Assembly (NCBI RefSeq): GCF_001442535.1
Contig: NZ_CP013141.1
Location: 4,182,553 to 4,246,552 of the forward strand
Length of the DNA: 64,000 nucleotides
DNA from: Lysobacter antibioticus
Lineage (GTDB): Bacteria; Pseudomonadota; Gammaproteobacteria; Xanthomonadales; Xanthomonadaceae
Reading direction: 5' to 3'
A program made the translations under genes and the position numbers. Below the pieces are notes generated by a model. It did no database searches and had not been told where the DNA came from. It worked only from the letters and a program-made list of their open reading frames with translations. Below are positions 14,857 to 45,627 of this stretch, piece by piece (position 1 is the first letter of the stretch; each line of letters starts with the position of its first letter).

Positions 14857-14896
14857 TCCAGGTCCAGGTCCAGGTCCAGGTCCAGGTCCAGGTCCA
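14857..14896 (+). repeat. TCCAGG hexanucleotide tandem tract
   Basis: About 6.7 uninterrupted copies of a TCCAGG unit directly before multi-hairpin copy A. Comparable hexamer tracts of different sequence flank the element in the other islands. Confidence 0.9.
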
Positions 14897-14903
14897 GATC
14901 AGA

Positions 14904-15135
14904 CGCCAAAAGCTTCCGCCACTAAAGCGGCGGGTTACTTTCTTTTGTCATAAGCAACAAAAGAAAGGTAACCAAAGAAAAATGCTTTTCTTTGAATCAC
15001 AAGCCCGCGCGTTCGATGCCGACGCAGGGCTTTTTCATACGGGACATCCATGTCCCGATGAAAAACGGCCCGCATCCATGCGGGCCGCCCTCCGGGTCTT
15101 CTATAATCCTTCGCGAGTACGAAGCGACGCACAGC
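14904..15135 (+). repeat. Multi-hairpin repeat element, copy A
   Basis: Copy A starts CGCCAAAAGCTTCCGCC and ends near GCGACGCACAGC. It has four consecutive stem-loops: CCGC/GCGG around 14916-14931; TTACTTTCTTTTG paired with CAAAAGAAAGGTAA (14935-14972); a long stem with arms TTTTTCATACGGGACA and TGTCCCGATGAAAAA (15031-15065); and CGGCCCGCA/TGCGGGCCG (15066-15087). It ends with a conserved CCCTCCGGGTCTTC box. Confidence 0.85.
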
Positions 15136-15160
15136 AACAGCAACAGCAACGGCAACGGCA
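15131..15160 (+). repeat. CAGCAA/CGGCAA hexanucleotide tract
   Basis: Five degenerate hexamer units immediately after multi-hairpin copy A. Confidence 0.75.
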
Positions 15161-15370
15161 AGGTCATCGGAGATCGCAACCTCGCCGACACGACCACTGT
15201 AGGAGCGGCGCGAGCCGCGACCACGGAACGCACGGAGATTCCGCCGCCGTCGCTGCCGATCGAAGCCTGAAACCGTCGCTGGGTAGGAGCGGCGCGAGCC
15301 GCGACCGTGAATTCGGGCGGCGATGATCCGTAGATGGCGTCGACCTCAGCCCTACTTTGGCTTTGGATGT

Positions 15371-15604
15371 TGCTGTGCGACGTCTCGAACTAGCGAAGGT
15401 AATCGAAGACCCGGAGGGCGGCGCGCAGGGATGCGCGCCGTTTTTCATCGGGACAGGGATGTCCCGTATGTAGATCCCTGCGTCGGCATCGCTCGTACAG
15501 GCTGGTGATTCAAAGAAAAGCAACTTCTTTGGTTAGCTTTCTTTTGTTGCTTATGACAAAAGAAAGTAACCCGCCGCTTTAGTGGCGGAAGCTTTTGGCG
15601 TTTG
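15371..15604 (-). repeat. Multi-hairpin repeat element, copy B (inverted relative to copy A)
   Basis: Reverse-complement relative of copy A. The conserved GAAGACCCGGAGGG box comes first, then stem CGGCGCGCA/TGCGCGCCG, stem GGGACA/TGTCCC, the AAAGAAAG/CTTTCTTT hairpin and finally CCGCTTTAGTGGCGGAAGC. Copies A and B face each other, forming an interrupted inverted repeat with about 235 bases between them. The outer half of the long stem seen in copy A is degenerate here. Confidence 0.85.
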
Positions 15605-15860
15605 ATCTAGATCTTGGTCTTGCTTGAGCGTTGCGCCGCAAGACCATCACAGCGCGGTCGCGGCTTGTGACCGAAGGAAATCCAGTAGGACGCCGCTCCT
15701 ACCCTTCGCGAAAGCACGCGGCTTCGATGGATAACCACAGCGATGCAACTGCTGCGCGTCCCGTGGTCGCGGCTCACGCCACTCCTACAGGGAAACGACG
15801 AAGCAGATCGCCGCGAAAGCGCAGCTTCTGACGCCAACGATATACAACGCAGAACAGCAA

Positions 15861-17780
15861 TCACCCCGCCGAACGCTGCGCCGCCTCGGCCCGCAACTGC
15901 TTCGCCCTCACCAATACCGGCGGCGGGGTGATCTCCTCGGGAATGCGGAAGATCCCGATCCGACGCAGCCACAGACCGGGCCCACGCGCCGAGGTCAGCG
16001 CCACCACCGGGATCGATACCACCAGGCCGATGATCACCGGCGACATCCACGCCGCCAGCGGCGGCGACACCACATAGGCCATCGCGCCGATCAGCAGGCC
16101 GAACAGGGTCAGGCCGCCGTAGCTGCGGATCAATCCCGACAGCGGCAGGCTGCCGTCGTCGCGACGCTGCGACTCCCAACCCGAGTCCTTGCCCGACAGC
16201 ACCTCGGCGACGCCACGCGACTGCACGTACATCGTGATCGGCGCCATCAACGCCGCCAGCAGGGTCTCCAGGATCATGCTGAAGAACGCGCGGATCGCAC
16301 CACCGCAGCCGCGCCGGGTGTTGCCGTCGAGCAACATGGTGATGAAACCCATCACCTTCGGCGTCAGCAATACCGCCATGGTCGCCACGAACACCCACAG
16401 CGCGCGCTGAGGGTCCTGGTCGCGCCAGTAATCACTCGGCGAAAAGCCAGGCAGGCGCGCGCTTTCCCAATTGAAGAAACCGGCCTTGTCGAGCGGAATC
16501 GCCAGGCCGATCAGCATCATCACCGCCCACATCGGCGCGGTGAAGTAATGGCCGATGCCCATCAGCAGGTGCATGCGGCTGATCCAGTGCAGGCCTTTCG
16601 CCGGCAGCACCGCGGTGTGCTGCAGATTGCCCTGGCACCAGCGGCGGTCGCGCACCAGCATGTCGGTCAGCGAGGGCGGACCTTCCTCGTAGCTGCCGAC
16701 CAGGCCCGGCAGCATGTGCAAGGCCCAGCCGCCGCGGCGCATCAGGGCGGCCTCGACGAAATCGTGGCTCAACACGGTGCCGCCGAACGGCTTGCGGCCC
16801 CGCAGTTCCGGCAAGCCGGCGTGTTCGGCGAAGGCGCGGGTGCGGATGATGGCGTTATGGCCCCAGTAGTTGCTCTCGGCGCCATGCCACCAGGCGATGC
16901 CGTAGGCGATCACCGGGCCGTACACGCGGCCGGCGAACTGCTGCATGCGCGCGAACAAGGTCTGGCCGTTGACGATCATCGGCAGGGTCTGGATCAGCGC
17001 CACGTCGGGGTGGCGTTCCATCGCACTCGACAGTTTCACGATGACTTCGCCGGTCATCAGGCTGTCGGCGTCGAGGATCAGCATCTGCGGATAGGCGGCG
17101 CCGAAGCGGCGCACCCATTCGGCGATGTTGCCGGCCTTGCGTTCGGCGTTGTTCTTGCGCCGGCGATAGAAAATGCGCTGCTGGCCGCCGGTTCGCTCGC
17201 GCAAGGAATGGAAGGCGCGGATCTCGGCCTGGCGGATCGGTTCCTTGGTGGTGTCGCTGAGGATGAAGAAATCGAAGCGATCGAGCTGGCCGGTGGCGGC
17301 GACCGATTCGTAGATCGCCTGCAGGCCGGCCATCAGCCGCTCGGGGTCTTCGTTATAGGTCGGTACCAGCAGGGCGGTGCGCTCGCCCAGCGCCGGCAGT
17401 TCGCCGCCCTGTTTCAGGCCCAGGCGCCAACGTCGCCGCGACAGGATCAGGGCGAACCCGGCCAGCGAGCTGGTGAAGGCCAGCGCGATCCAGGCAAACA
17501 AGGCCACGAACAGCAGCAACAGCACGCCTTCGAGCAGGTTCAGCCCGCCGACGTAGAGCACGCGCAGGATGTGGTAGGCCGCGACCAGAGTCAGCAGCGC
17601 TGCGCCGCCGATCACGTACAGGCGGCGCAGGGCCATGCCCTTCGGCTCGCTCGGCAAGGCGTTGCCGGAACGTTCGCCGCTGCTCAGCGATTGCACCGGC
17701 ATCGCCAGGGGCGATTCCGGGGGCAGCGCTTCGAACGGCACGGAGAGGGATCGTTGCGGGGGAGCGACGGTTGAGTTCAT
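15861..17780 (-). CDS. opgH: Osmoregulated periplasmic glucan glucosyltransferase OpgH (MdoH)
   Basis: 639 aa inner-membrane GT2-type glucosyltransferase polymerising the glucan backbone from UDP-glucose. After a short cytosolic N-terminus come two membrane helices (residues about 53-110), then the cytosolic catalytic domain with [16 protein letters not shown], the [13 protein letters not shown]sp motif, [20 protein letters not shown] and the processivity motif [12 protein letters not shown], then several C-terminal membrane helices. The ATG at 17780 overlaps the upstream opgD stop (ATGA). It is shorter than the 847-aa E. coli protein at the N-terminus, as is usual in Xanthomonadaceae. Confidence 0.95.
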
Positions 17781-44594: not shown

Positions 44595-44646
44595 GATGCT
44601 TCTCCAAACGGAACGCCGTATCGGCGATGGGCGTTAGGATGACACC

Positions 44647-44708
44647 GCAAACATGGAACAATACTGATTAAATTGCAAACATCAGTTACAAAATTAGAAC
44701 AATATTGA
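44647..44708. promoter_or_regulatory. AT-rich operator-like region before the second pirin gene
   Basis: Two copies of GCAAACAT (44648-44655 and 44675-44682), two copies of GAACAATAYTGA (44656-44667 and 44697-44708, 41 bases apart) and an inverted pair ACTGAT/ATCAGT (44663-44668 and 44681-44686) are interleaved in 62 bases of low-GC DNA. This looks like a binding region for a repressor or activator that senses the pirin substrate. Confidence 0.5.
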
Positions 44709-44925
44709 ACGAAGACCCAGGGTAGGAGCGGCGTCCTGCTGGATTTCCTTCGGTCACAAGTCGCGACCAAGGGACGCGCAGAAACACCAACGCCGATGTT
44801 GCTCATCGAAGCGGCGTGCCGTCGCAGGGTAGGAGTGGCGCCAGCCGCGACCGCGCTGCGACGTTCTTGCGGCGTTTCTCTCAAGCAAGATCAAGATCTA
44901 GATCTAGATCTTGATCTAGATCAAA

Positions 44926-45156
44926 CGCCAAAAGCTTCCGCCACTAAAGCGGCGGGTTACTTTCTTTTGTCATAAGCAACAAAAGAAAGGTAACCAAAGA
45001 AAAATGCTTTTCCTTTGAATCACAGGCCCGCACGAGCGGTGCTTCCGCGGGGCTTTTTCATACGGGACATCCCTGTCCCGATGAAAAACGGCCCGCATCC
45101 CTGCGGGCCGCCCTCCGGGTCTTCTATTGCCTTCGCTAGTGCGAAGCGACGCACAG
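44926..45156 (+). repeat. Multi-hairpin repeat element, copy D
   Basis: Near-identical to copy A: CGCCAAAAGCTTCCGCC start, the TTACTTTCTTTTG hairpin, the CGGGACA-tccc-TGTCCCG stem with TTTTTCAT/ATGAAAAA extension, and CGGCCCGCA/TGCGGGCCG. Ends at GCGACGCACAGC. Confidence 0.85.
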
Positions 45157-45365
45157 CTAAGCGAAAGACATGGCTGCAGCCGCAGCCGCAGCCGCAGCCG
45201 CAAACAGCTGACACACGTGCGACGCCATGATCCTTGTAGGAGCGACGTGAGTCGCGACCACGCGACCACCGGAATGCTGCGCCGTTACCGTCATGACGCG
45301 GTCGCGGCTCGCGCCGCTCCTACCCCAAAGGCAGCCCTGCGGCTGCCCTGCGACTGCCATGCCAT

Positions 45366-45400
45366 GCCGTTGCCGTTGCCGTTGCCGTTGCCGTTGCCGT
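45366..45400 (+). repeat. GCCGTT hexanucleotide tract
   Basis: Nearly six uninterrupted GCCGTT units beside multi-hairpin copy D'. The same unit flanks copy C' in island 2. Confidence 0.88.
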
Positions 45401-45410
45401 AAAGAGCTTG

Positions 45411-45627
45411 GCGCAGCACCTAGCTCGCGAGAACACCTGGAGACCCGGAGGGCGGCGCACAGGACGTGCGCCGTTTTTCGATAAGACAGGGACGTCTTAT
45501 CGAAAAATCCCGGCGACAGCACCGCACTCGTGGCCTGTGCCCTTGCAAGGAGAGCCCTCTCTTTGGTTACCTTTCTTTTGGGCTTAGCAAAAGAAAGTAA
45601 CCCGGCCGCGTCAGCGGACGGAAGCTT
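45411..45627 (-). repeat. Multi-hairpin repeat element, divergent copy D'
   Basis: Same subtype as copy C': CGGCGCAC/GTGCGCCG stem, TTTTTCGATAAGAC/GTCTTATCGAAAAA stem, CTTTCTTTTG/CAAAAGAAAG hairpin, CCGC-gtca-GCGG. Inverted relative to copy D. Confidence 0.85.

Follow-up and report, generated by a model that had tools for sequence, protein, structure and literature searches.

A 64-kb stretch of the Lysobacter antibioticus genome (5.77 Mb in a single contig), hereafter called the window, harbors six copies of a multi-hairpin repeat element distributed over three islands, and these belong to a large family dispersed in the genome. The copies end in a repetitive extragenic palindromic (REP) module and display on one strand only, designated R, invariant GGA loops that resemble the binding sites of the global regulator CsrA/RsmA. 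We give an even chance to the explanation that these are dispersed REP-bounded repeats, probably mobilised by a REP-associated tyrosine transposase (RAYT), which carry tandem CsrA-binding hairpins acting through read-through RNA of strand R. According to this explanation, the islands would be dispersed composite repeats of two monomers, usually one of type 1 and one of type 2, placed head-to-head or tail-to-tail, and a head-to-head pair with its outer REPs would follow the plan of an oversized REP doublet (a REPIN, or bacterial interspersed mosaic element, BIME). The most likely agent of their spread would be a RAYT working on the GTAG ends. Read-through from neighbouring genes would transcribe R, two adjacent hairpins of this transcript (Ha and Hb) would form a tandem site for a CsrA/RsmA dimer, and the copies might serve as scattered CsrA binding or decoy sites.

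Rereading of the sequence located all six elements where a preliminary description of the window had placed them (Table 1). R is the structured strand and runs opposite to the sense of the copies labelled "plus" in that description. From 5' to 3' on R, an element comprises a hexamer array, a small stem, the box CCCGNAGGG, hairpin Ha, usually a U-run and hairpin Hb, followed by a variable middle, a GGTTAC..GTAACC hairpin, a CGCCGC..GTGGCG hairpin, a linker and an inverted GTAG-REP ending in CTAC. The loops are A(N)GGA in Ha and ANGGAY in Hb, and the box GAAGACCCGGAGGG includes a CCC-GNA-GGG minihairpin. The stems number more than the four formerly ascribed to each element. Half of the shared 3' hairpin has six matches in the window, one per element, for 0.02 expected by chance. 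Moreover, a covariance model of the 3' hairpins, from which the window sequences were left out and in which two other copies of the same genome were included, returns the six elements as its top window hits, with E-values from 2e-19 to 5e-16; the same hairpins read on the opposite strand give six weaker hits (3e-5 to 1e-4).

A 15-base query taken from the 3' hairpin gives 241 matches in the whole genome at up to 2 mismatches (0 + 1 for the reversed control), and the sequence that continues it, at up to 2 mismatches, fits type 1 in 139 cases and type 2 in 76. The fetched part of the genome, 1.235 Mb chosen around copies and containing 230 of the 241 matches, holds 218 merged hits grouped in 124 islands; a few of these hits are a second one inside a single element, and about five are palindromic hairpins read on the wrong strand (ten same-strand neighbour pairs). 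The arrangement of one plus and one minus copy per island, proposed earlier, is therefore correct for the window but not for the genome in general, where 74 islands have two hits, 41 have one, seven have three and two have four. Both types could be assigned in 71 of the 84 neighbour pairs in opposite orientation, 68 of them combining type 1 with type 2 and three consisting of two type-1 copies. Tail-to-tail spacing is almost constant (119-127 bases in 34 of 46), and head-to-head spacing covers 408-682 bases. At the orthologous site of island 2 (elements C' and C), a tail-to-tail pair is present in 4 of 11 congeners (one partly masked, one partly judged by eye) and none in the other seven; at the site of island 3, the element was found in none of nine congeners, two of which have another sequence of similar length. 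The 124 separate islands and these filled or empty sites rule out a single segmental duplication as the source of the copies, an origin that the preliminary description had named as fatal to its own proposal. Finally, most copies are adjoined at their 5' end by hexamer arrays, mostly GTTGCC but also of other hexamers. Of 177 copies, 122 have a period-6 array of 24 bp or more on the 5' side and 23 on the 3' side; for periods 5, 7, 8 and 9 the count is only 1-3. The fetched sequence contains 252 period-6 runs, 186 of them within 600 bp of a copy, and for runs of at least 42 bp the figures are 83 within this distance and three farther.

The strongest lead to function is provided by the conserved loops, which the preliminary description had overlooked. 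Copies were picked by their 3' hairpin alone and every perfect hairpin upstream was then listed. GGA is present in the loops of 396 of the 453 hairpins obtained from 216 copies of this genome and TCC in none, versus 126 and 115, respectively, of 3549 control hairpins from elsewhere. In 13 other genomes, strains or bins (relatives are designated below by our genome numbers), GGA was found in 66 of 87 loops and TCC in none; G001, G003, G016 and one G007 locus entered this set via a search with the Rfam family TwoAYGGAY, and the count without the first three is 56 of 72. The weakest relative in this respect is G031, with one of five, and other low counts come from G016 (4 of 9) and G048 (9 of 15). 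Across 35 diverse modules, the A and the GGA of the Ha loop are invariant, the base between them is non-majority in 42% (and absent in 16 rows), the base following GGA in 46%, and stem variation amounts to 14% for Ha and 22% for Hb (30 rows). A fixed loop GGA combined with drifting stems is, on sequence grounds, the pattern of CsrA/RsmA sites, and, as in CsrA/RsmA-binding RNAs, GGA motifs occupy at least two hairpin loops of an element. The CsrA consensus obtained by systematic evolution of ligands by exponential enrichment (SELEX) is given in an excerpt of PMC4347634 as RUACARGGAUGU, with fully conserved ACA and GGA. The corresponding ACARGGATGT occurs 148 times in the element sense, never in antisense within elements, and 11 times elsewhere on both strands of the fetched 1.2 Mb. 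The genome encodes candidate partners, with two matches to the CsrA family PF02599 (92 and 51.5 bits).

Pairing is conserved where sequence is not, as had been claimed previously. The arms of the last stem change jointly, with CGGCCCGC/GCGGGCCG in copies A and D and CGGCGCGC/GCGCGCCG in B and C, and the longest stem of C' and D' has a different, perfectly paired 14-bp arm, both as described. In the 35 modules, the Ha/Hb covariation score is 0.298, a value that none of 500 shuffles reached, versus 0.115 in shuffled alignments; 10 of 17 pairs have changed on both sides (shuffled mean 4.9), paired cells amount to 93.8% versus 83.9% in shuffles, and shifting the partners abolishes the signal. These counts rest on selected rows, drawn from 41 representatives of 118 distinct modules in alignments of 12 (A4), 25 (A5) and 35 rows (A6). 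A5 had lost some intact rows, and the recount on A6 gave 93.8% paired cells instead of 96.0% and a score of 0.298 instead of 0.324, which left the conclusion unchanged; A6 left out six rows (two that the box search had displaced, two or three misplaced hits, one with Hb deleted) and has an insertion before Hb in five. The 3' double hairpin likewise covaries (0.245 versus 0.103) in alignment A3, composed of nine sequences without the type-1 bulge, the previous A1 (13 rows) having a bulge shift and A2 one misoriented row. Counts of G-U and A-C cells (814 and 114; 143 and 50 distinct) also cover helices that run on into the U-run, and they should not be taken as independent.

Paired stem changes could also arise through copying and template-switch correction of imperfect palindromes rather than by selection, the elements being selfish repeats devoid of function. 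Compensatory changes are reported in REPIN spacers too (excerpts of PMC3116915), the number of matches within the genus is very uneven, from 0 to 236, and hairpin modules appear by eye to be mixed between types. Palindrome correction accounts for paired stems but not for an invariant loop A and GGA next to freely varying loop bases, and it leaves the restriction of GGA to one strand unexplained, so that we judge this alternative improbable.

An important feature of the family is the asymmetry of its two strands. In 228 of 231 distinct bodies, the better fold of the two strands is that of R, with a mean advantage of 9.5 kcal/mol; folded as RNA, one type-1 element lies 7 standard deviations below shuffles on either strand, and one type-2 copy 3.5. 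The earlier proposal that the folded form, as RNA or as extruded DNA, is what matters is retained as regards folding but not as regards a two-sided structure, since a cruciform would not need GGA without TCC in the loops or a better fold on one strand, and the asymmetry thus speaks against it. Selection on R as a single-stranded fold is the best explanation, although strand asymmetry alone cannot separate RNA from single-stranded DNA.

No Rfam family matches at its curated cut-off anywhere in the window, which rules out a known family there at that level. The best sub-threshold matches over Ha/Hb are TwoAYGGAY (RF01731), at 45050-45114 in element D (31.3 bits for a cut-off of 43), and RsmW (24.8 bits, cut-off 52). 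TwoAYGGAY, RsmW and rsmX are common to Rfam clan CL00106, which we take to gather CsrA-binding RNAs. RF01731 exceeds its cut-off in 6 of 41 relatives and in none of 14 control genomes; in three of the six, the congeners G001, G003 and G016, the matches (46.7-46.8 bits) lie inside elements of the present family. Several TwoAYGGAY matches per genome above the cut-off were also observed in G041 and G051, from another family of the order, where the surrounding sequence is unlike the element. The elements share adjacent GGA-loop hairpins with TwoAYGGAY, while copies of the own genome remain under the cut-off. TwoAYGGAY is presented in a table entry of PMC2864571 as a candidate from human gut, Gammaproteobacteria and Clostridiales, and a dispersed REP-bounded repeat is not described in that entry. 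RsmU of Xanthomonas similarly has several GGA motifs, and its origin from an mRNA 3' untranslated region (UTR) offers a model for read-through transcripts in Lysobacter; it is not a 200-copy repeat, and its transcript and RsmA binding have been demonstrated (excerpts of PMC7694677). As RsmU sequesters RsmA from a 3' UTR, such RNAs do occur in a related genus. According to the same excerpts, significant homologues of CsrB/C or RsmV-Z are absent from sequenced Xanthomonas genomes. A CsrB/RsmZ-type small RNA gene would have a promoter of its own controlled by GacA; the Lysobacter element has a period-6 array as its 5' side in the 122 copies mentioned above. The Xanthomonas small RNA sX7 (RF02226) aligns weakly over the box and Ha (19.5 bits), far under its cut-off of 55, and this is a resemblance only.

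The GTAG-REP is the last conserved module of the unit. Column identity is mostly 0.7-0.9 across the REP, 0.8-0.9 for two bases past CTAC and 0.3-0.6 beyond; this drop is anchored on the REP motif, whose own conservation is given by construction. Tail-to-tail junctions account for 70 of the 190 oriented copies, and in the other 120 the first REP encountered is inverted in 104 and direct in 7, with none in 9, the median distance from the motif to the inverted REP being 123 nt. In '-+' and single-copy islands, 94 of the 95 nearest 3'-side REPs run opposite to R, and a REP lies inside the island or within 250 bp of it for 119 of the 124 islands. REPs cluster around the copies, 345 of 429 falling in the 16% of fetched bases located within 700 bp of one, as judged against a fetched part that was itself chosen around copies. 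Inverted outer GTAG-REPs are present in head-to-head islands such as 1 and 3, but not in all islands.

The family resembles REPINs and BIMEs, GTAG-REP doublets proposed in excerpts of PMC3116915 and PMC3733652 to be moved by RAYTs, in its extragenic location, high copy number, alternating inverted units, GTAG-REP end module, Y1-family genes, compensatory changes in the spacer and species-specific presence. Islands 1 and 3 follow the REPIN plan of PMC3116915 (as excerpted) scaled up: GTAG-REP, R minus, R plus and inverted REP. The family differs by its cargo: the multi-hairpin module between the REPs measures 230 bases, far more than the 71-bp spacing of GI REPINs in the same source, exists in two subtypes and is accompanied by hexamer arrays. 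Three matches to the Y1 transposase family PF01797, one with an internal stop, are present in the genome and are putatively of the RAYT kind; such matches were found in 17 of the 20 genomes searched, own included. Several REPs surround the Y1 gene at 2783727, and REPs without an R module lie beside several Y1 loci. A REP-type transposase as mobiliser, as suggested earlier, is plausible in view of the three matches and the GTAG-REP end, and we infer that the REPs were mobilised by a RAYT with R carried inside REP units. A phage or plasmid origin is rejected in so far as the Ha/Hb end of one element had no blastn match in a phage collection and one whole element had none in a plasmid collection. 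A viral contig (L206, IMGVR_UViG_3300045051_001524) carries a bare TTTCTTTTG..CAAAAGAAAGTAACC hairpin.

These REP ends and Y1 genes would also be expected if the hairpins and loops of R were recognised as single-stranded DNA by a mobilising enzyme, RAYT-like or other, with conservation serving transposition only and the CsrA match being coincidental. Single-stranded DNA would be expected to show the strand-specific fold and to tolerate G-T pairs just as much as RNA, the CCC-GNA-GGG minihairpin and the small gene-orientation bias are consistent with it, and REPIN spacers form hairpins in single-stranded DNA or mRNA in which compensatory changes are common (excerpts of PMC3116915). We regard this possibility as rather unlikely, as it does not account for loops matching the 10-base CsrA core, for elements of three relatives exceeding the cut-off of a clan CL00106 model, or for the absence of the element from 18 Y1 loci.

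A role as terminators or stabilisers of mRNA 3' ends, as proposed for REPs, was also considered, Ha and the U-run halting transcription between genes, and in both directions in pairs. In this genome, Ha is followed by at least four T in all but six of 177 copies (171), and none of the outermost motif positions of the 124 islands falls inside a predicted gene (gene calls by a simple custom script). However, the U-run is missing by eye in the GGA-loop relatives Root690, G001, G003, G016 and G048, invariant loops are unnecessary for a terminator, and convergent genes are not enriched (34 of 122 islands versus 123 of 473 in the background). We give this reading little credence, and as the main role it is rejected because several relatives lack the U-run.

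Exact copies of the 3' hairpin were found in named genomes of Lysobacter antibioticus 13-6, Lysobacter sp. Root690 and three metagenome bins. Several congeners are rich in copies: the 15-base piece at one mismatch has 0 to 236 matches across 20 genomes of the genus (own included) and 1 and 4 matches in 2 of 16 other genomes of the family. The model of the 3' double hairpin detects 52 of 229 genomes of the class, representing 49 of 196 genera (own included), with some close opposite pairs. At nine loci (L093, L097, L099, L313, L315, L323, L325, L327 and L331), a distinct structured repeat with a TGTYTGAGCG..GCGAGTT motif, from several genomes of the class, was seen by eye to end in the same GGTTAC hairpin, with no Rfam match at cut-off, and at several class-wide loci this module replaces the GGA module, also by eye.

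Several observations weigh against the explanation by RAYT-mobilised CsrA sites. REPs are present on both sides within 250 bp in only 51 of 124 islands, many of which are thus not complete REP doublets, and in tail-to-tail islands the 5'-side REP has a mixed orientation, with 13 '-' and 7 '+' on the left and 11 '+' and 8 '-' on the right. None of the 18 Y1 loci fetched, out of at least 36 matches listed, carries the R module; the Y1 loci differ from the REPIN situation in having REPs without this module, which also counts against the mobiliser suggested earlier and is the ground for rejecting the elements as terminal repeats of Y1 transposons ('TIRtrons', as excerpted from PMC3733652). The best TwoAYGGAY score of the own genome, 40.5 bits, is still under the cut-off, and in G031 only one of five hairpins has GGA. 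The islands have no orientation bias relative to genes, with 34 convergent, 69 co-directional and 19 divergent flanking pairs for 122 islands and 123, 244 and 106 in the background. R has the same sense as the upstream gene in 119 cases and the opposite in 96 (19 and 19 in single-copy islands); such a weak bias, like the lack of island orientation bias, is what a mobile repeat with no set regulatory position should show. Finally, a GGA loop lies upstream of the 3' double hairpin at only 8 of 26 loci of the class-wide sample, own included (30 loci were returned, four of them too short, and 11 of the 26 are in our reading reversed hits on a near-palindromic hairpin). Judging from these sequences, the GGA module is common in the genus and its order but does not characterise the superfamily as a whole, so that CsrA binding loses weight as the reason why the superfamily exists.

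If the R transcripts nevertheless bind CsrA, mobile DNA would have connected a regulator with hundreds of sites across one genome, species of very different copy number would constitute a ready natural experiment, the TwoAYGGAY motif would gain a biological carrier, and CsrA antagonists would be suggested near Xanthomonas. In a wider and more tentative scenario, possible but on the doubtful side, a mobile repeat would have spread hundreds of CsrA/RsmA hairpins over the UTRs of one genus, read-through RNAs would recruit CsrA or titrate it, with the strength of the sponge set by the number of copies (0 to 236 matches between species), and the whole would form a transposon-built post-transcriptional network. 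REPs and BIMEs are mostly viewed as hairpin repeats with occasional side effects, whereas the cargo described here has loops that match the consensus of a global RNA-binding regulator and stay the same as the stems drift. Neither REP units nor CsrA hairpins are new in themselves, but a single high-copy repeat that combines them appears to be: among the matches listed by literature searches on Lysobacter repeats, TwoAYGGAY, RsmA, sX7 and CsrA with REP/REPIN, with most subscription journals outside, no title or beginning of an abstract mentions the element or a repeat made of CsrA sites.

Table 1. Islands, elements and their modules in the window
Feature	Position	Strand of R	Details
Island 1	14766..15702	.	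Head-to-head pair: GTAG-REP, A (R on -), B (R on +), inverted REP ending CTAC; from sequence and REP orientation
Element A	14904..15135	-	Type 1
A, box and two A(N)GGA hairpins (Ha, Hb)	15032..15097	-	
A, 3' double hairpin	14912..14979	-	Covariance-model hit
Element B	15371..15604	+	Type 1
B, box and two A(N)GGA hairpins	15409..15474	+	
B, 3' double hairpin	15525..15592	+	Covariance-model hit
(GTTGCC)n hexamer array	21407..21436	+	5' side of C'
Element C'	21450..21657	+	Type 2; tail-to-tail with C
C', box and two GGA hairpins	21476..21541	+	Type-2 stems
C', 3' double hairpin	21591..21656	+	Covariance-model hit
Element C	21696..21927	-	Type 1
C, box and two A(N)GGA hairpins	21824..21889	-	
C, 3' double hairpin	21704..21771	-	Covariance-model hit
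Island 3	44829..45710	.	Head-to-head: GTAG-REP, D (R on -), D' (R on +), inverted REP ending CTAC; more REPs in the middle
Element D	44926..45156	-	Type 1
D, box and two A(N)GGA hairpins	45055..45120	-	
D, 3' double hairpin	44934..45001	-	Covariance-model hit
(GTTGCC)n hexamer array	45367..45401	+	5' side of D'
Element D'	45411..45627	+	Type 2
D', box and two GGA hairpins	45443..45508	+	Type-2 stems
D', 3' double hairpin	45559..45625	+	Covariance-model hit

Other mobile sequences are associated with some copies. Four near-identical 1086-bp genes coding for IS30-family transposases (NCBIfam NF033563, 272.8 bits for one of them) were identified near positions 517815, 2148794, 3300932 and 3928389 of the genome (contig C1), inside the GGTTAC/GTAACC part of the 3' hairpin of the element, as if an insertion sequence of this family used the element as an insertion hot spot. 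In addition, the GGTTAC hairpin of some copies (e.g. at 2175040 and 3999590 of C1) is interrupted by a short stretch like GACCGAAGGGAATCCAGACGGAC, and a very similar stretch is present in the loop of some GTAG-REPs, for example the REP at 14766-14812 of the window, which suggests that small hairpin modules are exchanged between repeat families.

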